A DNA stretch of 11,327 nt from assembly GCA_022562855.1 (NCBI GenBank), contig JADFON010000034.1, positions 1 through 11,327 on the forward strand. Reading direction: 5' to 3'. Position numbers and translations under genes: made by a program. This DNA is from Candidatus Zhuqueibacterota bacterium. GTDB lineage: Bacteria > SM23-31. Under the pieces are notes generated by a model that searched no databases, was not told the origin of the DNA, and worked only from the letters and a program-made list of their open reading frames with translations. The first letter of the stretch is position 1. Each line of letters starts with the position of its first letter. Shown piece after piece: positions 1-11,327 of the stretch.

Positions 1-960
1 CGAATAGAGGATAATATTGAGGACGAAATACTTAAAACATTGCAAAAAACCGGAATAAAACTGATAATTCCGATGATGATTCACGAGAAACTGAAAGGTA
101 TAGTCTGCCTTGGGGAAAAAGTATCGGGGAAGCGATTTTCAGAAGAAAATATTGAATTTTTATCAACTCTTGGTAACCTGGCAATGATTTCTCTTGAAAA
201 TGCTATGATGGTGGAGGAGATGCTTGAAAAGCAGCGTATAGAAGAGGAATTAGCGTTAGCACGAGAAATACAGCAGAATTTGTTACCCGGAGACTTCATC
301 AATATACCGGGATTCCAACTGGAAGCGGTAAACATCTCAAGTCAATCGGTGGGCGGGGATTATTACGATTTCCTGAATTTTGCAGATTCTACCTGTGGTA
401 TAGTCATTGCCGATGTGTCCGGTAAAGGAGTGCCTGCTTCACTCCTTATGGCAAATGTGCAAGCCTCGTTCCATGCCTTGTCAGAAGTGATGGTAAATCC
501 TGCAAATCTGATCGATAAAATTAATAATATAATTTATAGAAACACCTCATCTGACAAATTCATAACGTTGTTTTATTGCAGGTTATATCCGGATGAAAGA
601 AGAATTGAGTATTGCAACGCTGGGCATAATCATCCGTTCATACTCTCAAAGGACGGAACAGTTAAATATCTCGACAAAGGTGGTTTGATACTTGGAATAA
701 TGCCCGATTTGGATTATCAACTGGATTCCGTTGATTTGGAGCGTGGAGACGCATTGATAATGTATACAGACGGAGTATCGGAAGCTATGAACAAAGAAAA
801 TGAAGAATTTGGCGAGAACCGTTTGCTGGATGTTTGTCAAAAATTGCGTAATAATTCAGCGTCAACGATAAGGGACGGAATCCTTAACGCAGTAAACGAC
901 TTCAGTCAAGGCGCCCCTCAATATGACGATATTACGCTGGTTGTATTGAAAGTGGAATAG
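1..960 (+). CDS. GAF-SpoIIE/PP2C serine-threonine phosphatase, RsbU-like (5' end missing)
   Basis: The reading frame is open from the first base of the window, so the gene begins upstream; 319 residues are visible. Codons 1-60 look like the end of a GAF domain (IPMMIHEKLKGIVCLGEK, then an SEENIEFLSTLGNLAMISLEN helix). A charged helical linker follows (about 65-95), typical of the signalling helix joining GAF to phosphatase. Residues 95-319 form a complete SpoIIE-type PP2C domain. The expected metal-binding acidic residues are present: D120 and D123 in GGDYYDF, D138 in ADVSGKG, D257 in YTDGVSE and D309/D310 in DDITLVV. NAGHNHPF is also conserved. By family, such enzymes dephosphorylate phosphoserine on STAS anti-anti-sigma proteins in partner-switching pathways. 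It is the first of three tandem genes of this kind. No partner is visible, so the substrate is unknown. Confidence is high for the family and low for the exact pathway. Confidence 0.93.
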   Translation, partial: RIEDNIEDEILKTLQKTGIKLIIPMMIHEKLKGIVCLGEKVSGKRFSEENIEFLSTLGNLAMISLENAMMVEEMLEKQRIEEELALAREIQQNLLPGDFINIPGFQLEAVNISSQSVGGDYYDFLNFADSTCGIVIADVSGKGVPASLLMANVQASFHALSEVMVNPANLIDKINNIIYRNTSSDKFITLFYCRLYPDERRIEYCNAGHNHPFILSKDGTVKYLDKGGLILGIMPDLDYQLDSVDLERGDALIMYTDGVSEAMNKENEEFGENRLLDVCQKLRNNSASTIRDGILNAVNDFSQGAPQYDDITLVVLKVE

Positions 961-992
961 GCGAAAGACAATCGCTGCTTAAATCAATTCGG

Positions 993-1016
993 CGAATATG
1001 GACTGAATAATATTCG
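993..1016. repeat. 7-bp inverted repeat between phosphatase genes
   Basis: CGAATAT (993-999) and ATATTCG (1010-1016) are perfect inverted copies around a 10-base loop, within the 195-bp gap between the first two phosphatase genes. No T-run follows, so it is not a standard intrinsic terminator. It could be an operator or chance AT-rich pairing. I saw no convincing promoter boxes in the rest of this gap. Confidence 0.25.
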
Positions 1017-1155
1017 TGAAGAGGTGTTTATAACAAACTTGCTCTTAGAATTAAAATTTATCCGAGTCCAAGTTTGATTCATTATGTAATTTGCCGGCTC
1101 ATATTCTCAATGCCGGAATCCTCAATTTATTAAACCGATACATCATTATAAGAAA

Positions 1156-2883
1156 ATGAAGGATAGTTCATTCATAGCCAGGAATTGGGTTGATTCGTTA
1201 GTGAAGATACCGGCATTTCCTGATAGATGCAGCCAAATCTGCTCCTGGGTTCAGGAAGTTTATAACGCGCAGAAAGTTTTGTTGTTTTTTCATTCGGAAA
1301 AACGGTCAAGGTATACCATTCGAACGACTATTAGAATTCATAAGTCATCTTTTCGGAGACTGGATTTTCACGATGAACCGTTCATTTACGACAGAATGCA
1401 GTCCGACAAACCTCAAAAATTTGAAGGTTTACTAACGCTGAAAACATGGCCCTGGTTCAGGGAAGAATTAAAACACAACCTGAGAAATGCCGGAATGAGT
1501 TGGATTTTGCCGTTATGGTCAGGGCACGAATGTCTTGGGGGACTGGTAATAAAAATGGCTACTCCCAAAAAATCGGTTTATTCCGAAGCTCTTGGCAAGG
1601 CAACTACCGACTTTGGCCATTTGCTGGAGATTGCATTTGTAAAACAACTGCTTCTACGCGATGAATGGGAAATGAGAGTTCTCCTGGGAGTCGGAAAGCG
1701 GATAAGCGAGCTTAAAGACCTGGATTCGATACTCAAGCTCATGATTGATTCGATCAAGGAAGTTATTGATTACGATGCAGCCGGAATATTTATTTTGAGA
1801 ATGCCGGAGAAGAAGATTGAATATTCTACTCTTCGGGGATTTCCCGGAAATCTAAAAAATAAAGTGAATCTGAAAGTCGGCAAAGGAATTGTGGGCTGGG
1901 CTATCGAGAATGGGAAAGAAGTTACTGTGCCGGATGTACGGGAAAACAAAAGATATATTATGGCGCGTCGAGGAACAAAATCTTCAATTGTTGTCCCTAT
2001 CAAATTTGGAGGCACGGTGATGGGCGCCTTTGCACTCGAAAGCGACAAACTCCATTTTTTTAAGTATCATGACGTAGAATTACTCAGGGCTTTTGCCTCA
2101 CAGACAGCTATTGTATTAGAGAATTCGAAGCTTCTTAATGCGTCAATGCAGGCTGTTCAACTACAAACAGAGATAGAGATTGCTGCCGGTATTCAAAAAG
2201 CCCTGCTGCCAAAGAATATTCCTAAAATAAAGGGATATGACATAGCGGCGGTAAATCACTCCAGTCTCGCTGTCGGGGGAGACCTGTATGATTTTATTCA
2301 GATATCCGACCATGAACTTGGCGTGGCTATTGGCGACGTTTCCGGGAAGGGAATACCGGGCGCTATATTAATGGCGTCGCTTTATTCAACTTTCAGGGGT
2401 TTATACAGGAAGAGCGGACCTCCCGGCAATGTGATTAAAGAACTCAACGAATCAATATATAATCATACTGAGGCAGACAAATTTGCAACTTTTTTTTATG
2501 GAGTTTTGAACTACTCGAATGACAGTTTTACCTATTCGAATGCAGGACATAATCCTCCTATTCTGCTTAAAAGCAATGGAGAAACCCGGACTCTTTCAAA
2601 AGGAGGTTCGCTATTGGGATTTATTATCGGAAAAAATTATCTGTCGGAAACAATAAATATGCGACCGGGCGATGTTTTATTCCTCTACACGGACGGTGTT
2701 TCAGAAACATTTAACCCGAAGAACCAGGAATTTGGTGAAGACAGGATAATCGAATGTCTAAAACAATACATCAATCACTCTTCAAAACAAATTATAGATA
2801 ATGTATTGGCAAAGATCAAAAATTTTTCGAAGAAAAGTTACCAGGATGATGATATAACCATAGTCGTGGTGAAAAAAGAATAA
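1156..2883 (+). CDS. GAF-SpoIIE/PP2C serine-threonine phosphatase, RsbU-like, cytoplasmic
   Basis: This 575-residue protein has no membrane segment. Residues 1-170 are not clearly assignable; a GAF-like stretch (WILPLWSGHECLGGLVIKM) suggests a degenerate first sensor. Residues about 172-325 are a typical GAF domain, including VGKGIVGWAIENGKEV, VPDVRENKRY and SIVVPIKFGGTVMGAFALES. A helical linker leads to the SpoIIE-type PP2C domain (about 338-575). That domain has VGGDLYDF, IGDVSGKGIPGA, NAGHNPPI, YTDGVSETFN and DDDITIVVV, so all acidic metal ligands are retained. The ATG is the only usual start codon after the in-frame stop at 1087-1089; no clear Shine-Dalgarno site precedes it. The next gene begins 4 bp after its stop, which implies co-transcription and probably translational coupling. 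By family it should dephosphorylate a STAS-type anti-sigma antagonist in response to a ligand or redox cue at the GAF domain; the cue is unknown. Confidence 0.93.
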   Translation: MKDSSFIARNWVDSLVKIPAFPDRCSQICSWVQEVYNAQKVLLFFHSEKRSRYTIRTTIRIHKSSFRRLDFHDEPFIYDRMQSDKPQKFEGLLTLKTWPWFREELKHNLRNAGMSWILPLWSGHECLGGLVIKMATPKKSVYSEALGKATTDFGHLLEIAFVKQLLLRDEWEMRVLLGVGKRISELKDLDSILKLMIDSIKEVIDYDAAGIFILRMPEKKIEYSTLRGFPGNLKNKVNLKVGKGIVGWAIENGKEVTVPDVRENKRYIMARRGTKSSIVVPIKFGGTVMGAFALESDKLHFFKYHDVELLRAFASQTAIVLENSKLLNASMQAVQLQTEIEIAAGIQKALLPKNIPKIKGYDIAAVNHSSLAVGGDLYDFIQISDHELGVAIGDVSGKGIPGAILMASLYSTFRGLYRKSGPPGNVIKELNESIYNHTEADKFATFFYGVLNYSNDSFTYSNAGHNPPILLKSNGETRTLSKGGSLLGFIIGKNYLSETINMRPGDVLFLYTDGVSETFNPKNQEFGEDRIIECLKQYINHSSKQIIDNVLAKIKNFSKKSYQDDDITIVVVKKE

Positions 2884-2887
2884 TACT

Positions 2888-4939
2888 GTGGGGTCTTCAC
2901 TAAAAAATATTTTCAAGTTTCGTTTACGTACCAAGATCACTTTCCTGGTATTGTTAGTGATCCTGCTTATCTGGATAACTATGAGCGTTATTGATATGTG
3001 GTCTGATTACCTTGAGCATGAAACTAATCTACAGGTTCAAATGCAACAGGTTGCCGAAGCAATATCTCAGATTGGAAGTTCGATTGAGACACGGGCGGAC
3101 TGGGAGGTCTTTCAGAACTACATTGATGACATTCACGCCGTACTGGATAAAGTCGTTTATATTGGCGTATTCGATGCCGCTGATAACTTGCAGGTGTATT
3201 ATTTGAAGGAGGATCTGTTCGAATTAGACATTAGTGCCACTGTAACCGACTCCCTGCTCAAAGATTACGTTTTAAAGCTAAGCACTAATCCGGGCGAGAC
3301 TTTTTCGTTGATTTACGATTTTTATTTATTTTATCCTTTTTTTTCAATCGGTCTTGATAAGCTCGGAACCGTTACGCACAGCATAAGTTCGGGAAACGAG
3401 TTTTTTGGAAGGGTACAGGTCGGCTATGCAAAGAGGGAATTGAACAATGAATTAGTAACCGTTTATAAGCGAAATGTAATTATACTCATAATATTTATTG
3501 TCATCGGCTTTCTGGCGTCGCTGTTAATGAGCTATCGCCTGACCAAGCCGCTTGAGCGCCTCAGTACCGCAATGGAGACTATTCCTCACGGTAATATGGA
3601 CACAATCGTTGAATCTCACACCTCGGATGAGATAGGGTCTCTTGCACGGTCGTTCAATTATATGGTAAGGGAACTTCGCGAAAACAATTTTTTTGACAGG
3701 TTTGAGAGGGATTTAAGAAAAGTTTTTACGCTTGAAAAAATATTCGCGACACTTCTTGGAAGATTAGAATCTCTATATGGCATCAATAAAGGGGCTCTCT
3801 TTATCAAAAGCACTCAAAACGACGAGTATGTTGGAGTGTATCAACAAAATTTTGATGTCGATTTTCCTGCTGATTTTCACTTCTCAATGGAAAAATCTCT
3901 TGAAAACCACTTGAAAAGAGACGAAATTTGCTTTTCTCTTGAAGGACTCGAAATAATTTCTAACGAGATTCCTACGCTCAGGGCTCCATTCGCCCTTGCC
4001 GGGAAAAATTCAATTCACTGGACAGTGTTTCTCAAACGTCAGGATAAATGTTTCGGTGTTATTTATTTCGGGAAAGATATAGATTACCAAAGTGTCGATA
4101 TTGAGGAAAAGAAATATATTGTTAACCTTGTCAATCATACGCTTCTGCCGTTTGAAGTTGCATTGTTGCATGCTGATCTGACGGAACAGGAACGACTGAA
4201 AAAAGAGTTTGAAATCGCAAGATTTGTCCAATCGAATCTGCTTCCGCAGAGTATGCCCGATTTTGAAGGATACGACATTTTCGGTCTTTGTCTGCCTGCC
4301 AGGGAAGTCGGGGGTGATTATTTCGATTATGTACCTCTCAGCGAAAACAAATTGGGAATAGTTATCGCAGACGTTGCCGGTAAAAGCACCTCAGCCGCAT
4401 TCTATATGGCAGAAATTAAGGGGATGATTGTCTCGCTTTCAACGCTTTACCATTCTCCAAAAGAGTTGTTGATAGTTCTGAATACCCGTATGTTCCTGAA
4501 TGCAGACAGAAAAGTTTTTGCATCGATGATCTATGGAGTGCTCGATAAGAAATCAAATAGTTTTACATTCGCCAGGGCAGGGCACAATCCATTGTTGGTC
4601 AAGCAGGATTCTAAGAACCTTGTTACATACTTGACCCCCGACGGTCTGGGGCTTGGTCTTGACCGTGGAAAGATATTTGATGAGTTAATTACTGAAGAAA
4701 AGGTGAAAATGAAGGAAGGCGACACGTTGTTGCTTTACACCGATGGTGTAGTCGAATCGATGAACAAGAAACAAATTGAGTTTGGTGAAGAAAGGCTGCA
4801 AAATATCGTATTACGACAGGATGAAATATCCTCCGAGACCGGCTGTCAAGAGATACTAAAAGGACTTAAAGCTTATTCTTCCGGTACAGAGCAATTTGAT
4901 GATATTACCATGATAATGATAAAAAGAGAAAAGAAATAA
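2888..4939 (+). CDS. Membrane-anchored HAMP-SpoIIE/PP2C phosphatase with periplasmic sensor
   Basis: The order of parts in this 683-residue protein is: basic N-terminus, TM1 (about 17-35), periplasmic domain (about 36-193), TM2 (about 195-215), HAMP domain (about 213-268, with TKPLERLSTAMETI and DEIGSLARSFNYMV), a GAF-like region (about 275-430) and a SpoIIE-type PP2C domain (about 440-683). The periplasmic part contains VYIGVFDAADNLQVYYL, which suggests a Cache/PAS-like fold (inference). The phosphatase keeps VGGDYFDY, RAGHNPLL, YTDGVVESMN and FDDITMIMI. The usual DVSGKG motif reads DVAGKS; the metal-ligand Asp is kept but the loop differs from both neighbours. The start is GTG, 4 bp after the preceding stop. 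An AAAAAAGAA tract ahead is only a weak ribosome-binding site. It probably signals an extracytoplasmic stimulus to a cytoplasmic STAS substrate. It is the last gene of the plus-strand unit. Confidence 0.92.
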   Translation: MGSSLKNIFKFRLRTKITFLVLLVILLIWITMSVIDMWSDYLEHETNLQVQMQQVAEAISQIGSSIETRADWEVFQNYIDDIHAVLDKVVYIGVFDAADNLQVYYLKEDLFELDISATVTDSLLKDYVLKLSTNPGETFSLIYDFYLFYPFFSIGLDKLGTVTHSISSGNEFFGRVQVGYAKRELNNELVTVYKRNVIILIIFIVIGFLASLLMSYRLTKPLERLSTAMETIPHGNMDTIVESHTSDEIGSLARSFNYMVRELRENNFFDRFERDLRKVFTLEKIFATLLGRLESLYGINKGALFIKSTQNDEYVGVYQQNFDVDFPADFHFSMEKSLENHLKRDEICFSLEGLEIISNEIPTLRAPFALAGKNSIHWTVFLKRQDKCFGVIYFGKDIDYQSVDIEEKKYIVNLVNHTLLPFEVALLHADLTEQERLKKEFEIARFVQSNLLPQSMPDFEGYDIFGLCLPAREVGGDYFDYVPLSENKLGIVIADVAGKSTSAAFYMAEIKGMIVSLSTLYHSPKELLIVLNTRMFLNADRKVFASMIYGVLDKKSNSFTFARAGHNPLLVKQDSKNLVTYLTPDGLGLGLDRGKIFDELITEEKVKMKEGDTLLLYTDGVVESMNKKQIEFGEERLQNIVLRQDEISSETGCQEILKGLKAYSSGTEQFDDITMIMIKREKK

Positions 4940-5038: not shown

Positions 5039-7741
5039 CTACTTTGATCGCATTTCCTGCAGTTTGGTGAGGGCGCTTGTGTCGGTGGGAAATATTTCAA
5101 TCCACTGTTCAAGATATTCCGCCGCTTTATCGTATTGTCGAGTAACTTCGTAAATGCTTATCAATGCGCTGAACGCCCGGTTGTCCCGGTTGTTGCGTTC
5201 CCATAGCTGCCGGTAGGCTTTTTCCGCATTGACCGTATCCGAGAAGGTCGAGAACAGTAATACCGCGTAGTTATGTTGAATGTCCGGGGAAATCGGCGGC
5301 TCCCAATCAAGCATATCAAGAATTCTTGTATGGTATTCTTCCTGCTTTCCGGCTACGGAATAAAATCTGCCAATATTATCAAGAAGAACCTGGTCTTTTA
5401 TCATCCTGAAATCGGGCACGTTTTTCTGCATGCTGTCAAGCACTCTTATTGCTTCCGTCTGGTTGCCGGAGTTCAGATATTGTTGTGCAAAACGGAGGAA
5501 TCCCTGGCGGTAGTTGTACAAAAGACGTAGCGTACCAAAATCTAAATAAACGTCCGGGTCGTTTAGCCCCCTGTATTGAAATACTTCCATTAAGTTCTTA
5601 CCAAGCTTATCCTGCAGAAGGGGGGCGTTTTCTACGGGGGTGATTCTCCAGGCTAAGCCGTCTAACCGGAAATATTTGTCGAATCCGGCATAAAACGCTG
5701 GACTCACCGTAATGGCAAAATAGACCGGTCTCTGCCATTGATTGTTACTGATTAAATGGTAGATCATCAGGTCCTGTACTTTCAAGGCTGTCTGGTCGCC
5801 GACTTGTATCGTATGATTCGCCTGAACAGAAATAGAGTTTACAGTATCATATTGCGGAGGAACCGTCTGACCGTATTCTTGAAAATGCGCTTCATATACA
5901 GACCGGGGAACCGGGATCTTAATTACCTGTGACTCCCAGGCTACCGGACCCAACTGACTTATCTGTGCATCTGTGAGCGCTATGTTGAGCTTTGGTTCGT
6001 AATTTTTTAACTGGTTAACGTACCAGGTTGTATTCAAAAGGCTCAGGTTAACGATTTTGACGTCCTTCCTGATACCTTCCACTTCCTGGATGTACCAGAG
6101 CGGAAAAGTGTCATTATCCCCGTTTGTAAATATAATTGCGTTTGGTTCGCACGACATAAGAATGTTATATGAATAATCCCAGGGCACATAATTTCCCGTT
6201 CTGTCGTGGGAATCGTAATTGTGATTGAATTGATTCCACGGTCCAGCCATTACAAGCACGACCGCTATAAAACCTGTTAAAGTTTTCTGGAATTTCCCGT
6301 CGCTAAATATCTGTTTTATCTTTGAGAGAATCGCCAATGCTCCCAATCCTATCCAAATTGCAAACACAAAGAAGCTGCCGACATACACATAATCTCTTTC
6401 ACGGGGTTGAGGATTCGCCTGGTTTAAATAAATTACGAGAAGTAATCCGCCTGTAAAAAAGAACGCAAAGATGGCAAACGATTTTTTCCAGTCTTTCACA
6501 CTGTGATAAAACAATCCGATCATTCCTATTATAAACGGAAGACCTTTCAGACCGATAAATGAAAAACTCTCCAGGATAAATCCCCTTCCACCTCCGGCGA
6601 ACGTCAGACCTTTTCCTATGAAATTCCAGCTAAAGTAGCGTAGATACATATACTTAATCTGGTAATCCCAGAATGGCGCAGCCCTGTCGAATGTTGTAGA
6701 CAAAAGACTCGTAGTACCATATTGTTCCCGGTTGAGATAATAGAGCATCCCAAGAGATGAAGGATCGTTCTCGTTGATAAGCGGTTCCATTGCCGAACGG
6801 ATGCTTATCATGAAATACGTTGACCGTCCGATGGCAACTATTACAAAAATCATTGCAGTTGTGATAAACATCCCGGTTAACAGCGACTGCCAATGCAAAG
6901 GAGTGTTCGGTCTATATTGCAGTATTAAAAAACCTGCTCCGATAGCGACCACAAAGAAAAGACCGAAAATTGTGATCGTTCCCGAAATTCCCAAAAATAC
7001 AGTAGGATCGACGCTTGACAGATATTCAATTCCAATTATTACAACAGTCAAAAACGCTGCAACAATAGCTGATAATGGTGCAAGAAGTTTGTTCAGGATT
7101 ATTTGGGGTTTGTTAAAGAATATAATTAAAATCACGGTCGGAACAACGAGCAGATTCAATAAATGAACGCCGTAGGACAAGCCGATCAAATATACAATAA
7201 GCAGAAGATTTTTAACCGATGACAGGTCTTCACGTGTTTCAAACCACCTGAGTGCAAGCCAGAGAGTCGCCGCGGTAAAAAGCGTACTGAGGGCATACAC
7301 TTCGGCTTCAACAGCATTGAACCAGAATGTGTCGGAAAATGCATACGTTAACGCGCCAATCGAGGCGGCGCCATATATTATGAATTTGTCAAAGCGGTTT
7401 TCCGGTCTTCCCCGGAAACTTCTCACCAGTTGTATGATAATGAGATAGAGCAGCAGAATGGTTAGTGCGCTTGCGATAACGGATATGATATTTACTTTGA
7501 GACCGATATCTTCCGGAAATGGTAGAAAGGTAAAAAGCCTTCCGAGCAGCAGAAAAAACGGCGCTCCCGGCGGATGGGGAACACCAAGTATGTATGAGCT
7601 GGCAATAAATTCACCGCAATCCCAGAAAGAGACCGTCGGAGCAACAGTGTCTAAATATACTCCGAGAGACAAAAGGAAAGTAAATGCGCCTACTAATGAA
7701 AGTTCCGGGTCCCGGGTAAAAAACGATTTCAATTTTCCCAA
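5039..7741 (-). CDS. DUF2723 family GT-C-like integral membrane protein with C-terminal TPR region
   Basis: This 900-residue protein has a hydrophobic N-terminal half with roughly a dozen membrane segments and a long soluble C-terminal half. Family hallmarks are SFWDCGEF (38-45) and HPPGAP (56-61) after TM1, and the NGDNDTFPLWYIQEVEG motif near residues 540-556. D41 and E44 sit in the first outside loop, where GT-C glycosyltransferases carry catalytic acidic residues; catalysis itself is inferred. The last 130 residues have TPR-like helical repeats (for example AFSALISIYEVTRQYDKAAEYLEQWIEIFP). DUF2723 proteins are widespread in Bacteroidota-type bacteria and are thought to transfer sugars from lipid-linked donors. 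The start appears to be TTG at 7739-7741: an in-frame stop lies at 7748-7750, no ATG occurs before the family motifs, and GGGAG lies 11 bases upstream. A second in-frame TTG lies three codons later. It is probably co-transcribed with the sigma and anti-sigma genes. Confidence 0.9.
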   Translation of the reverse strand: MGKLKSFFTRDPELSLVGAFTFLLSLGVYLDTVAPTVSFWDCGEFIASSYILGVPHPPGAPFFLLLGRLFTFLPFPEDIGLKVNIISVIASALTILLLYLIIIQLVRSFRGRPENRFDKFIIYGAASIGALTYAFSDTFWFNAVEAEVYALSTLFTAATLWLALRWFETREDLSSVKNLLLIVYLIGLSYGVHLLNLLVVPTVILIIFFNKPQIILNKLLAPLSAIVAAFLTVVIIGIEYLSSVDPTVFLGISGTITIFGLFFVVAIGAGFLILQYRPNTPLHWQSLLTGMFITTAMIFVIVAIGRSTYFMISIRSAMEPLINENDPSSLGMLYYLNREQYGTTSLLSTTFDRAAPFWDYQIKYMYLRYFSWNFIGKGLTFAGGGRGFILESFSFIGLKGLPFIIGMIGLFYHSVKDWKKSFAIFAFFFTGGLLLVIYLNQANPQPRERDYVYVGSFFVFAIWIGLGALAILSKIKQIFSDGKFQKTLTGFIAVVLVMAGPWNQFNHNYDSHDRTGNYVPWDYSYNILMSCEPNAIIFTNGDNDTFPLWYIQEVEGIRKDVKIVNLSLLNTTWYVNQLKNYEPKLNIALTDAQISQLGPVAWESQVIKIPVPRSVYEAHFQEYGQTVPPQYDTVNSISVQANHTIQVGDQTALKVQDLMIYHLISNNQWQRPVYFAITVSPAFYAGFDKYFRLDGLAWRITPVENAPLLQDKLGKNLMEVFQYRGLNDPDVYLDFGTLRLLYNYRQGFLRFAQQYLNSGNQTEAIRVLDSMQKNVPDFRMIKDQVLLDNIGRFYSVAGKQEEYHTRILDMLDWEPPISPDIQHNYAVLLFSTFSDTVNAEKAYRQLWERNNRDNRAFSALISIYEVTRQYDKAAEYLEQWIEIFPTDTSALTKLQEMRSK

Positions 7742-7752
7742 ATTTATTTATT

Positions 7753-7757
7753 CTCCC
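7753..7757 (-). promoter_or_regulatory. Ribosome-binding site that fixes the TTG start of the DUF2723 gene
   Basis: Read on the minus strand this is GGGAG, 11 bases ahead of the TTG. It is partly covered by a small hairpin, CCAAA (7756-7760) with TTTGG (7767-7771) around a 6-base loop. That pairing uses two bases of the ribosome-binding site and could modestly limit its access. Confidence 0.55.
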
Positions 7758-7801
7758 AAATCATACTTTGGTTTGAAAAATTCGATTCACGTTTTCTTCC
7801 C

Positions 7802-8515
7802 TCAGGCAATTAATACCGGTTTTTGCCGGTAGAATTGCGGAGTCGGTGATATACTTTTGGACGCGTCCGAAATAAGTTTACCCCTGCTGCGAGAAGCAGA
7901 ACCTGCTTCCACGGATGTGGAAGAAATTATCCTGTTCATCAATGCGTAGGGGGAAAGCATATCTGCGGAAAAGAAATAGAATTTTGATTGAATATCAGGT
8001 GACGCGATTTTAATGCTGCGGTGGAAAAGTAGAAAATTACTGAGAAAGGCAAGAGAGTCACGCATTGGAGCGCTTGTCGACATAGCTCCTGCAGTTACAA
8101 TAGTATCTCCGGCCCAGAATTCCTGATCGTTCATTTCATAGTAGGGCATCGATATTGTCGAAACCGGATCGATAATCATATAATTATAAAAGAACAATAC
8201 TGCAACTACACTCAAAGCCATAGACATTAATTGTTTGTAGGGTTCCTTCGGATTCGATTTTCTTATTGCGGCAGTTTCTATTTTGCCAAATATGCGGTTT
8301 TTCAAGGCAAAATAAGTGTTGCTCGAAACGTGCGGCATTTCGACTTCTCGAATAGTATTGAATGAGTTAACCATGAATTCCAGCTCAACGCTGCAGGAAT
8401 CACATTCTCGAATGTGATTGTCAAGATCCGCCGTTTCTTCGAGGGACAATTCCTCAAGAAGAAAATCAATAAGTAATTCCCGTGAAATACCACAATTTTT
8501 ATTATTTGTCGACAT
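7802..8515 (-). CDS. Zinc-finger-type membrane anti-sigma factor
   Basis: This 237-residue protein begins 2 bp after the stop of the ECF sigma gene, the usual arrangement for a sigma/anti-sigma pair. The N-terminus carries the ZAS signature: H34-x3-C38-x2-C41 within DNHIRECDSCSVEL, with C8 as a possible fourth ligand. Leucine-rich acidic helices before it (LLIDFLLEELSLEET) fit the sigma-binding fold. One membrane segment lies at about 95-115, so the N-terminus should be cytoplasmic and the remaining 120 residues periplasmic. The periplasmic part has no recognisable domain; it ends in a Ser-rich, Arg-containing stretch (SRSRGKLISDASKSISP). By family it should hold the sigma factor inactive until an envelope or redox signal releases it. 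A strong hairpin overlaps its final codons. Confidence 0.85.
   Translation of the reverse strand: MSTNNKNCGISRELLIDFLLEELSLEETADLDNHIRECDSCSVELEFMVNSFNTIREVEMPHVSSNTYFALKNRIFGKIETAAIRKSNPKEPYKQLMSMALSVVAVLFFYNYMIIDPVSTISMPYYEMNDQEFWAGDTIVTAGAMSTSAPMRDSLAFLSNFLLFHRSIKIASPDIQSKFYFFSADMLSPYALMNRIISSTSVEAGSASRSRGKLISDASKSISPTPQFYRQKPVLIA
7806..7838 (-). repeat. Strong hairpin over the last codons of the anti-sigma gene
   Basis: GCAATT (7806-7811) pairs with AATTGC (7833-7838), and TACCGG (7814-7819) pairs with CCGGTA (7826-7831). This makes a 12-bp stem with one small internal loop and a 6-base apical loop. It covers the last 11 sense codons, starting 2 bases from the stop codon, and precedes the DUF2723 gene. 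No T-run follows on either strand, so it looks more like an mRNA processing or stability element, or a partial attenuator, than a terminator. Confidence 0.55.
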
Positions 8516-8517
8516 AA

Positions 8518-9090
8518 TTATTCTTTTACAAGTACCTGGATTTTCCCAACAGCGTAGTGTATCCGGGATTTAACCGTCCCGATGGAGCATTCCATAATAG
8601 ACGCTATCTCTTCGTAAGATAAAAAGTGGTAAAATTTCAATATAAAAGCAATCCGTTTTGACTGAGGCAAAGATTTCATAGCCTCGTTAATACGGTTTGT
8701 GCGGTCTTTTTTCTGCAAAATCTCGAACGGCGTATCATCATGACTGAACGACTCGATAAAATTGTAATTATCGAAGTCAGGGTTATATGGAGAATTGTTG
8801 ACCATTTTTGACTGCTCACGCCGCCTCTTTCGAAGTTCGTTTATGCACAAGTTGATTGCAATGCGATACACCCAGGTAGAAAACTTGTACCGGTCGTTAA
8901 ACTTGTCTGCATTTTCAAGAACTTTTATAAACGTATCCTGAAAAATATCTTCAGACCGGTTCTGGTCATAAAGCATTTGATTAATAAAGAACGTAAGCGG
9001 ACGGGCATATTTCTTGAAAAGCAAATCGAACGCTTCTTCATTACCATTCGCACACGCTTTGATCAATTGTTCGTCGTTTTTTACAATCAT
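8518..9090 (-). CDS. ECF-type RNA polymerase sigma factor
   Basis: At 190 residues this is the normal size for the ECF group of the sigma-70 family. Region 2 spans about 24-92: SEDIFQDTFIKVLENADKF for core binding, then FSTWVYRIAINLCINELRKR for -10 recognition and melting. A 40-residue linker follows. Region 4 (about 138-186) has LPQSKRIAFILKFYHFLSYEEIA and a helix-turn-helix with CSIGTVKSRIHYA for -35 recognition. There is no region 1.1 or region 3 and no C-terminal extension. The ATG start has no obvious Shine-Dalgarno site. The membrane anti-sigma factor follows after 2 bp, so activity is probably controlled by release from that partner. The target promoters cannot be read from this window, although the DUF2723 gene downstream is a natural regulon candidate. 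Confidence 0.95.
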   Translation of the reverse strand: MIVKNDEQLIKACANGNEEAFDLLFKKYARPLTFFINQMLYDQNRSEDIFQDTFIKVLENADKFNDRYKFSTWVYRIAINLCINELRKRRREQSKMVNNSPYNPDFDNYNFIESFSHDDTPFEILQKKDRTNRINEAMKSLPQSKRIAFILKFYHFLSYEEIASIMECSIGTVKSRIHYAVGKIQVLVKE

Positions 9091-9411: not shown

Positions 9412-9603
9412 GAGAGTGTTGTATAATTGCCAAAATAAGTCCAAAAATCTGTATGCGGGGTCGTCTCTGACCCCGCATAAGCACAAATGTTTCACGCAGC
9501 GCACATAGTGACCACTCGCGTGGCGGGACGTGGCGGGTCAGGGACGACCCCGGTAAAGGGGACAGGCCCGAACTACGGTGTTTTAGGGTTTTGCAACACT
9601 CTC
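9412..9603. mobile_element. MITE-like 192-bp element with terminal inverted repeats
   Basis: GAGAGTGTTG (9412-9421) and CAACACTCTC (9594-9603) are perfect 10-bp terminal inverted repeats. Inside, two GC-rich palindromic blocks sit at similar distances from the ends (46 and 53 bp) in inverted orientation, and the interior is clearly richer in GC than the flanks. There is no coding capacity for a transposase. No clean target-site duplication is seen; the flanks read AATAG on the left and ATATAG on the right, only loosely similar. The layout fits a non-autonomous MITE, or alternatively a REP doublet of the kind mobilised by RAYT-type transposases. No parent element is in the window. Confidence 0.6.
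9452..9552. repeat. Paired GC-rich palindromes (REP-like doublet) inside the MITE-like element
   Basis: Block one is a perfect hairpin: TATGCGGGGTC (9452-9462), a 6-base loop, then GACCCCGCATA (9469-9479). Block two (9535-9552) is itself palindromic (GGGTC, 6 bases, GACCC) and is the inverted copy of 9456-9473 with 17 of 18 bases matching. The one difference, at 9466, still allows G-U pairing in RNA. Between them are a CCAC/GTGG hairpin (9512-9523) and two tandem 10-bp units starting GTGGCGGG (9520-9529 and 9530-9539). The whole block could fold as one long stem or as two separate hairpins. Confidence 0.65.
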
Positions 9604-9625: not shown

Positions 9626-10468
9626 ATGAAAATGATACTCCTCATCATAAGAATCGCAATTGGACTACTCTTCGTTTTTTCCGGTGCACTGAAAATGACC
9701 GACCTTATTTCGTTTCATGATACGATAGAGCAGTTCAATATCCTGCCAATTCAATTCATTAATGCAGTGACAATACTCATTCCGTCGCTTGAACTCGTAT
9801 GCGGCTTGTTTCTAACATTGGGCTTGTTCAAAAAAGGCGTGATTTCTATCCTGGTTCCGCTTATGACAATTTTTATCATAGCAATAAGTATAAACCTCTA
9901 CCGGGGTGCAGAATTCGACTGCGGATGTTTCGGACCGTTGTCGATATTTAGTACGATTTCATTTTCCAATGTTCTTTTTGATATACTGCTGTTAATCCCC
10001 TTTGCTGCGATATACATGAAAGATAACGGTCATGTTAATGTAAAACCACAATTTAAAATACCAATGATTTACTCAGTGTTGGTTTCATTCGTTATATACA
10101 TACCTTTCATGAGCACTAACCTAAAACATAGCATTATCGCAAAAAATGTCCAAATTATAAATTGGGACGAGGCTTACAATTTTATAGAGGAAGATAACGC
10201 AGTTTTATTCGACGCCAGACCAAACAGCAGGTTTGAGAAGGAGCATGTTCCAGGTGCGTTTTCGCTTCCTTTTAATGATTTTATTGAATTTTATAAAAAC
10301 CATATCGACTTGAATAAATCCCGATCAATTTTAATTTATTGTGATGGTTTGGATTGCAACGCATCACAGCGCGTTGCAGATAAATTGGTGCAAAGAGGGT
10401 TTACGCGAGTATTTAATATTAGGGAAGGCTGGGAGGCATGGAAACAAAAAAATCCGAAGATTTCTTGA
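9626..10468 (+). CDS. MauE/DoxX-like membrane protein fused to a C-terminal rhodanese domain
   Basis: This 280-residue protein has membrane segments at about 4-22, 46-68, 71-92, 113-131 and 146-163. The DoxX/MauE part shows SGALKMTDL after TM1 and DCGCFG (C99, C101) between TM3 and TM4. Residues about 175-275 are a rhodanese domain: LFDARP, then HVPGAFSLPF, then the active loop YCDGLDCNAS with C239 as the expected persulfide-forming cysteine and C244 nearby, and the usual GW-AW end. Lysines after TM2 and TM4 suggest an N-terminus-inside topology, which puts both the CGC motif and the rhodanese domain in the periplasm (inference). MauE is needed for disulfide maturation of the methylamine dehydrogenase small subunit, which suggests a thiol-redox role here. 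The ATG is the only usual start between the in-frame stop at 9584-9586 and ATG 9632; the Shine-Dalgarno site is weak. The next gene overlaps it by 31 bp. Confidence 0.88.
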   Translation: MKMILLIIRIAIGLLFVFSGALKMTDLISFHDTIEQFNILPIQFINAVTILIPSLELVCGLFLTLGLFKKGVISILVPLMTIFIIAISINLYRGAEFDCGCFGPLSIFSTISFSNVLFDILLLIPFAAIYMKDNGHVNVKPQFKIPMIYSVLVSFVIYIPFMSTNLKHSIIAKNVQIINWDEAYNFIEEDNAVLFDARPNSRFEKEHVPGAFSLPFNDFIEFYKNHIDLNKSRSILIYCDGLDCNASQRVADKLVQRGFTRVFNIREGWEAWKQKNPKIS

Positions 10469-11079
10469 CTCGAATAACAGAAAAAAATATAACGATATTA
10501 ATAATTGTTATCCTGTCTATCTATATATATTACAGTAAAAACACCCAAACGTTTTTGATCGATGGGGAAACAGATTTAAGAAGCAAAAACACCCTTTTAG
10601 AAACGGATTTAAATCTGTCAAATAATGTAAGGGACAAATTGATATCGGGATTACATTTAATGAACAAGGATTATTCTGAATTTAACCGGGTGCTGCCAAC
10701 AAATGAGTTGAAATTTGTCTCCGTTATAGAAAACAGGGACCACCACCACAACGCTGACAATAATATGCACAGAGTTATTACCGCTATTACAACAGAGTAC
10801 GATATAAAATATTATATTTTTTACTCAAATTCGGAAGACGATTCCAATTCGGAAGACAATTCCAGATTGGATGAATTCTACAAAGAAATAGCGGTGCAAG
10901 ACTTTCATAAGATAACTAATAATACAGCAATGTTATTAGAAACTCCTACGCTATTTTTGATCAGTAAAAGAGACAAAATATTAGCTTCGTTTACCTTTAC
11001 CGGCAAGGAGAACTCGGGAGAGCGTGGTTACATAGGAGAATTATTGAGCAGCCTTATAAAAGAATATAATCAATTTTAA
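10438..11079 (+). CDS. Membrane-anchored, cysteine-free protein, possibly thioredoxin-like
   Basis: I do not recognise this 213-residue protein as a whole. It has a short charged N-terminus, one membrane segment (about 18-33) and then a mainly hydrophilic domain expected in the periplasm. The stretch ETPTLFLISKRDKILASFTF resembles the cis-proline strand and following hairpin of TlpA-type thioredoxin folds, but the protein has no cysteine, so it cannot do thiol chemistry itself. It also has a DHHHN histidine cluster and a repeated NSEDDS/NSEDNS segment caused by an 18-bp tandem duplication. The start overlaps the MauE-rhodanese gene by 31 bp in another frame; AGGGAAGG (10421-10428) is a good ribosome-binding site 9 bases ahead. 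The overlap implies co-expression. Its codon use is visibly AT-rich. It may be a binding partner or scaffold for the neighbouring redox protein and peptide, but that is inference. Confidence 0.75.
   Translation: METKKSEDFLTRITEKNITILIIVILSIYIYYSKNTQTFLIDGETDLRSKNTLLETDLNLSNNVRDKLISGLHLMNKDYSEFNRVLPTNELKFVSVIENRDHHHNADNNMHRVITAITTEYDIKYYIFYSNSEDDSNSEDNSRLDEFYKEIAVQDFHKITNNTAMLLETPTLFLISKRDKILASFTFTGKENSGERGYIGELLSSLIKEYNQF
10828..10863 (+). repeat. 18-bp in-frame tandem duplication
   Basis: Units 10828-10845 and 10846-10863 match at 17 of 18 bases (the difference is G10840 versus A10858). They encode NSEDDS and NSEDNS. The near identity suggests a recent slippage duplication in an exposed acidic loop. 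Confidence 0.85.
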
Positions 11080-11128
11080 GCCCCCATATGTTTCAATAAT
11101 GCAACTTAAACAGAAACACCAAAACAAC

Positions 11129-11134
11129 AGGAGA
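11129..11134 (+). promoter_or_regulatory. Strong Shine-Dalgarno site of the small secreted peptide gene
   Basis: AGGAGA lies 5 bases ahead of the ATG and is the clearest ribosome-binding site in the window. It suggests that the peptide is translated more strongly than the genes before it. Confidence 0.65.
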
Positions 11135-11139
11135 ATAAA

Positions 11140-11327
11140 ATGAAGAAATCAGGAAAATTAAATATCATATTGTTTATGGGTATTGTTTTACTTCTTGCTA
11201 TTATTGGAAATCCCAATAATTCTTTTAGTGGAGAAGAAACTTGTCAAGGTCCTGTTGATCTTGAGCACGCATGTGAAATTAATGCATTCAATGTAAGGCA
11301 TTCAGAGTGTATTGATTGTGAATGGGG
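11140..11327 (+). CDS. Small secreted cysteine-containing peptide precursor (3' end missing)
   Basis: 62 codons are visible and the frame is still open at the window edge. The N-terminus is a good Sec signal: MKKSGK, a hydrophobic core (about 8-22, IILFMGIVLLLAIIG), then a small-residue region NPNNSFSGEE with likely cleavage near 28-31. The mature part shows four cysteines, C35, C45, C57 and C60, the last two in a CIDC (CxxC) motif, and a nearby H55. A very good Shine-Dalgarno site precedes it, and it starts 60 bp after the previous gene. The layout recalls NVEALA-type short secreted peptides of Bacteroidota, which are also short exported Cys-containing chains, but I do not see that motif, so the family is unassigned. 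It is a plausible substrate for the upstream MauE-rhodanese protein. Its full length and C-terminus are outside the window. Confidence 0.7.
   Translation, partial: MKKSGKLNIILFMGIVLLLAIIGNPNNSFSGEETCQGPVDLEHACEINAFNVRHSECIDCEW

Follow-up and report, generated by a model that had tools for sequence, protein, structure and literature searches.

We lean towards reading the last three genes of the window (the whole stretch of DNA analysed, 11,327 nucleotides) as a dedicated cysteine-maturation module, working as a disulfide relay, for one small exported peptide. An earlier note on this DNA had proposed that three consecutive genes, the first two overlapping, are devoted to an exported cysteine peptide. 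This proposal is well supported, since the three genes recur together in other genomes, the cysteines of the peptides are conserved, and the relatives of the peptide are short secreted proteins rather than the start of a large unrelated one.

Gene layout at the contig end

The open reading frames lie as the earlier note had described them. A MauE domain joined to a rhodanese overlaps a cysteine-free, membrane-anchored protein with a thioredoxin-like tail, after which a strong ribosome-binding site introduces an exported peptide that has four cysteines or more:

9626..10468, plus strand: MauE-rhodanese fusion protein, 280 aa (Pfam profiles and AlphaFold model)
10340..10357, plus strand: codons of the rhodanese C239-x4-C244 site (CDGLDC); two relatives have TGA in place of the final TGC (10355-10357)
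10438..11079, plus strand: predicted TlpA/CcmG/ResA-like thioredoxin-fold protein, cysteine-free and membrane-anchored, 213 aa (model and homologues)
11140..11327, plus strand: 5' part of the gene for a small exported cysteine peptide, 62 codons visible (AGGAG, signal-like leader, relatives)

The overlap between genes 1 and 2 measures 31 bp in the window and is kept in every relative with both ends read. The window is an entire contig (C476) of a fragmented metagenome-assembled genome (MAG; 2.5 Mb, 491 contigs, 80% complete), and its end falls within the peptide gene, so that the end of the peptide and the genes beyond are absent from the data for this genome. No continuation of the contig emerged when its end was compared for overlap with those propeller contigs of the same genome that were examined, and the module DNA has no second match anywhere in the source genome. 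Upstream of gene 1 (9440-9600) lies a G+C-rich palindromic element, an interspersed REP-like repeat that is matched in part at 38 other places in the genome. Farther upstream, the window encodes three successive proteins with similar C-terminal phosphatase-like domains (1-4939; SpoIIE/RsbU type, named by eye) and, on the minus strand (5039-9090), a cluster of an ECF sigma factor, a zinc-finger anti-sigma-like protein, and a TMEM260-like membrane protein.

Both domains of gene 1 score above the curated Pfam cut-offs: MauE (PF07291) over residues 1-127 (E 2e-24; 86.8 bits versus 27) and rhodanese (PF00581) over residues 181-275 (E 3e-17; 63.5 bits versus 22.2), with C239 at the catalytic position. 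The four MauE transmembrane (TM) helices carry C99-x-C101 in the TM3-TM4 loop, and a fifth TM helix leads into the rhodanese with its C239-x4-C244 pair. The AlphaFold model (pLDDT 83) places helices at residues 2-25, 42-65, 69-92, 113-132, and 139-173. Since the N-terminus and the loops 66-68 and 133-146 are rich in lysine, as read from the sequence, the CxC loop and the rhodanese would both face the periplasm. C99, C101, C239, and C244 are invariant in the six fusions aligned, C244 being a candidate selenocysteine in two of the copies.

Gene 2 contains no cysteine, and the CxxC active site of the MauD/TlpA oxidoreductases is absent; a profile search found no Pfam or NCBIfam match. Its AlphaFold model, built from six sequences (mean pLDDT 75, with residues 132-166 poorly predicted), consists of a long N-terminal helix followed by a beta-alpha-beta, beta-beta-alpha core. 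The top PDB matches of this model all belong to the thioredoxin superfamily (Foldseek E 1e-4), and it superposes on CcmG over 127 residues (VIA-align Z 10.2, rmsd 3.1); the predicted fold is that of a CcmG/ResA-like thioredoxin. The L033 homologue retains QCPTYT, and a redox ancestry is plausible because the counterpart in the same position of a MauE-TlpA-peptide locus from an Ignavibacteriales MAG (L091/L204) has a full CPIC site. Gene 2 thus looks like a protein that lost its redox site and kept its fold.

The visible part of gene 3 opens at 11140 with a signal-peptide-like start and has four cysteines in the mature part. Its relatives are 53-94 aa long in the window's family and 71-75 aa in Aminicenantia, so that, by homology, the window's peptide should be short as well. 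Relatives at fusion loci have four to six cysteines in the mature part, compared with at least four in the window's peptide, of which four are visible. In tandem paralogues, 25 of 28 cysteine columns are kept, versus 76 of 204 other columns that are identical (p 1.5e-7); across phyla, the peptides have only their cysteines in common and share no sequence pattern. None of the peptides belongs to a Pfam or NCBIfam family. Identification as an AgrD-like pheromone was dropped, its sole support being one match at E 0.2.

Recurrence of the locus and extent of the module

Seven fusion loci were compared, all on MAG contigs with some flanks lost at the ends: the window, four copies in one genome of the same family (G002, JANQEH01; L031-L034), and one in each of two Aminicenantia genomes. 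The fusions of the four copies are 29-43% identical to that of the window, and the gene order is fusion, overlapping thioredoxin-like gene, exported cysteine peptide, and propeller. In Aminicenantia, the fusion of L076/L209 is 39% identical to that of the window and that of L202 is cut by the contig end; each locus has two tandem peptides and a propeller. Overall, the thioredoxin-like gene lies downstream in all seven loci (the window and all six others), and a six-bladed propeller in all six where the contig continues. These fusions were recovered with an alignment query, a contig search with a single protein query having given no matches. Among some 470 additional genomes in the neighbourhood of G387 and G388, none gave a fusion at E 1e-30; in G387 and G388 themselves, MauE is present and unfused.

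A signal-peptide cysteine ORF follows the fusion at six of the seven loci. At the seventh, L031, codon 54 of the peptide gene (L031:9192-9434) is a TAG, beyond which the same frame encodes two more cysteines; this is either a pseudogene, a sequence error, or recoding. By comparison, an exported cysteine peptide accompanies none of 24 unfused MauE and rhodanese pairs and 4% of random anchors (Fisher p = 1e-5), peptides being counted within 2.5 kb downstream and both peptides and signal peptides being called by custom-script heuristics. Since four of the seven fusions come from one genome, the number of independent events is below seven.

Versions with MauE only occur in a family-mate (G001, L035), in the Ignavibacteriales MAG (L091/L204), and in another MAG (L105/L207/L208). 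They carry thioredoxin-like genes, small exported peptides, and propellers, with the exception of the short Ignavibacteriales contig, which has no propeller. A short AraC-type regulator gene lies upstream of the module in L031, L032, L033, and L035; no such gene precedes the module in the window, where the interspersed repeat lies instead. The three-gene boundary drawn earlier was therefore too narrow: once the AraC-type regulator and the propeller of the relatives are counted, the full module comprises about five genes, and the regulator often leads it. At L202, a radical SAM/SPASM protein (L202:1424-2755) is encoded beside the module, its nearest families being the Clo7bot and TIGR04463 peptide maturases, below cut-offs.

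Unfused MauE-rhodanese pairs are found in Aminicenantia, for instance between aminotransferase-like and PPDK-like genes (named from sequence). Such pairs, occurring where there are no peptides, show that MauE and rhodanese also have a broader role together, from which the peptide module probably derived. The propellers scanned in the relatives are of the DUF5128/NHL type and not large subunits of methylamine dehydrogenase (MADH). As a marker of the module, the propeller was rejected: of 119 matches to the six-bladed DUF5128 type (12 in G000, 61 in G001, and 46 in G002), the majority of those inspected occur singly or in tandem arrays of propellers.

The rhodanese site and candidate selenocysteine copies

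The two-cysteine C-x4-C site is general for MauE-linked rhodaneses. Among 67 rhodaneses aligned to the profile, C-x4-C or C-x4-U occurs in 44 of 49 that are linked (fused to MauE or no more than 400 bp from its gene) versus 7 of 18 that are unlinked, the latter being a small set picked by likeness to the profile. CxxGxR is the commonest site in the unlinked set, and sites of this type are found in most of its members that lack C-x4-[C/U].

In two of the G002 copies, an in-frame TGA stands at the second rhodanese cysteine (L033:7850-7852 and L034:936-938), and readthrough yields the remaining rhodanese with a normal end overlapping gene 2. Both share a hairpin, GUUGC-GGU-GCAAC, 15-18 nt after the UGA, which is absent from the cysteine copies. 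Its stem corresponds to five consecutive identical codons that begin 18 nt from the TGA, although the two genes have only 49% DNA identity and agree in codon choice at 42 of 93 shared residues; its folding energy is within that of shuffles (z -1.6 and -0.3). SelB and tRNA-Sec score above cut-off in G000, G001, and G002. A UGA at a conserved cysteine, an open frame beyond it, a SECIS-like hairpin, and the selenocysteine machinery thus occur together, and we regard these rhodaneses as candidate C-x4-U selenoproteins. The window's own copy is the cysteine form. Taken together, the Cys/Sec exchange at the second position, the hairpin, and the presence of SelB and tRNA-Sec point to a redox-active residue.

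C-x4-U appears to be unlisted, since the catalogued rhodanese selenoproteins have UxxS, UxxG, CxU, or UxxxxU (PMC13188914). The module resembles these proteins in its Cys/Sec pair and shares the five-residue spacing of TsoB (UxxxxU), but its C-x4-U rhodanese is fused to MauE and not to a DsbD-like protein.

A proposed disulfide relay weighed against other readings

In the pathway that we propose, a signal peptide would export the cysteine peptide. The MauE domain would present its periplasmic C-x-C pair and the fifth TM helix would bear the periplasmic rhodanese with C-x4-C/U, and these pairs would serve as a thiol-disulfide relay by which the disulfides of the peptide are made (or corrected). 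The TlpA-like protein, devoid of active-site cysteines and tethered to the membrane, might hold the peptide or serve it as an adaptor, and the mature peptide may work with or bind the propeller that is encoded next in relatives. The relay, the direction of its chemistry, and the roles of the thioredoxin-like protein and the propeller are all our inferences. A thiol-disulfide relay is nevertheless the most economical reading, with persulfidation as its main rival. Since the rhodanese fold usually transfers sulfur, a role in disulfide chemistry leans on the second Cys/Sec.

This rival would have the periplasmic rhodanese accept sulfane sulfur and persulfidate or otherwise sulfurate the peptide cysteines, and MauE regenerate the enzyme, making the peptide a sulfur carrier or metal ligand. 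The conserved cysteine at the catalytic position of a rhodanese fold agrees with it, as do the top structural matches of gene 1, which are rhodanese-fold proteins with sulfurtransferases among them; in another context, a DoxX homologue was tied to oxidative or sulfur stress (PMC12452194). We nevertheless consider it unlikely: sulfurtransferases with a single Cys do not usually have a second Cys/Sec five residues on, which is the very residue exchanged for selenocysteine, and the lack of any peptide at most unfused pairs implies a general role of the pair too. Quite unlikely as well is a part in competition or signalling, in which a hypervariable disulfide-rich peptide would act outside the cell, with the propeller as receptor or self-protection and the AraC-type gene as regulator. 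The peptides are indeed highly variable around fixed cysteines and often come in tandem pairs, small AraC-type regulators precede four loci, propeller paralogues are numerous in three genomes, and a peptide-maturase-like radical SAM/SPASM gene adjoins L202. However, no exporter beyond the signal peptide was recognised, the radical SAM gene occurs at one locus only, and the propellers are mostly solitary. This reading is compatible with disulfide maturation, the function then being intercellular.

The mau cluster offers the closest parts list. Methylamine metabolism requires both MauE and MauD, and MauE is believed to help form the disulfides of the MADH small subunit (van der Palen 1997, as cited in PMC7794033). 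The module and its relatives match this list in MauE, a thioredoxin-fold partner (MauD), a cysteine-rich small exported protein (MauA), and a propeller (MauB), and the Aminicenantia peptides keep two tryptophans with four cysteines (CW-x4/5-FW/YW-x-C). An enzyme resembling MADH, with the propeller as large subunit, the peptide as the small subunit with a quinone derived from tryptophan, and MauE with a MauD-like protein in its maturation, is nonetheless very improbable. The tryptophans are not conserved in the window's family; the MADH small-subunit Pfam profile matches neither the window's (partial) peptide nor ten relatives, the propeller is of another type, and no MADH subunit family is found. 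The module further differs in its rhodanese-fused MauE and in a thioredoxin-like partner that lacks cysteines, and no MauG or haem protein was recognised in it. Finally, coincidence, that is, a housekeeping MauE-rhodanese with small genes unrelated to it as neighbours, might be entertained in view of fragmented MAGs and of four fusion copies from a single genome; it is scarcely credible given an order repeated at seven loci in two distant groups with a conserved overlap of genes 1 and 2.

The earlier note knew of no described system with exactly this set of genes, a statement that finds no support as worded. In Streptomyces, decRiPPter predicted three candidate RiPP families in which mauE, in one of them together with mauD, lies beside precursors with at least eight cysteines (PMC7794033). 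The present module may therefore be a variant of this predicted, uncharacterised type, resembling it in a MauE, sometimes with a MauD-like protein, beside a cysteine-rich precursor; it differs in its phyla, and the rhodanese fusion, possible selenocysteine, redox-dead thioredoxin, and propeller were not found described there. Bufferin clusters, which are built around an MNIO enzyme, likewise place a DoxX-superfamily membrane protein next to exported cysteine-rich RiPPs (PMC12452194). The ORFs next to the seven fusions included no recognisable MNIO (DUF692) or DUF2063 gene, within limited flanks that were partly profile-scanned. In the open-access literature, we found no paper treating MauE and rhodanese together (the one co-mention concerns an unrelated subject), nor any on NVEALA or DUF5128. 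It is possible, if short of probable, that these loci encode exported disulfide peptides of a class not described before, found in two or more distant bacterial groups, each peptide with its own membrane-bound MauE-rhodanese oxidase (in some copies C-x4-U), a redox-dead thioredoxin escort, and a cognate propeller.

MauE is fused or adjacent to a two-cysteine rhodanese in many genomes and, in one clade, accompanied by a single peptide; the module thus offers a compact system for probing the substrate and chemistry of MauE, in which the candidate selenocysteine copies single out the residue of first interest. If our reading is true, it would represent substrate-dedicated disulfide formation outside the DsbA/DsbB route.
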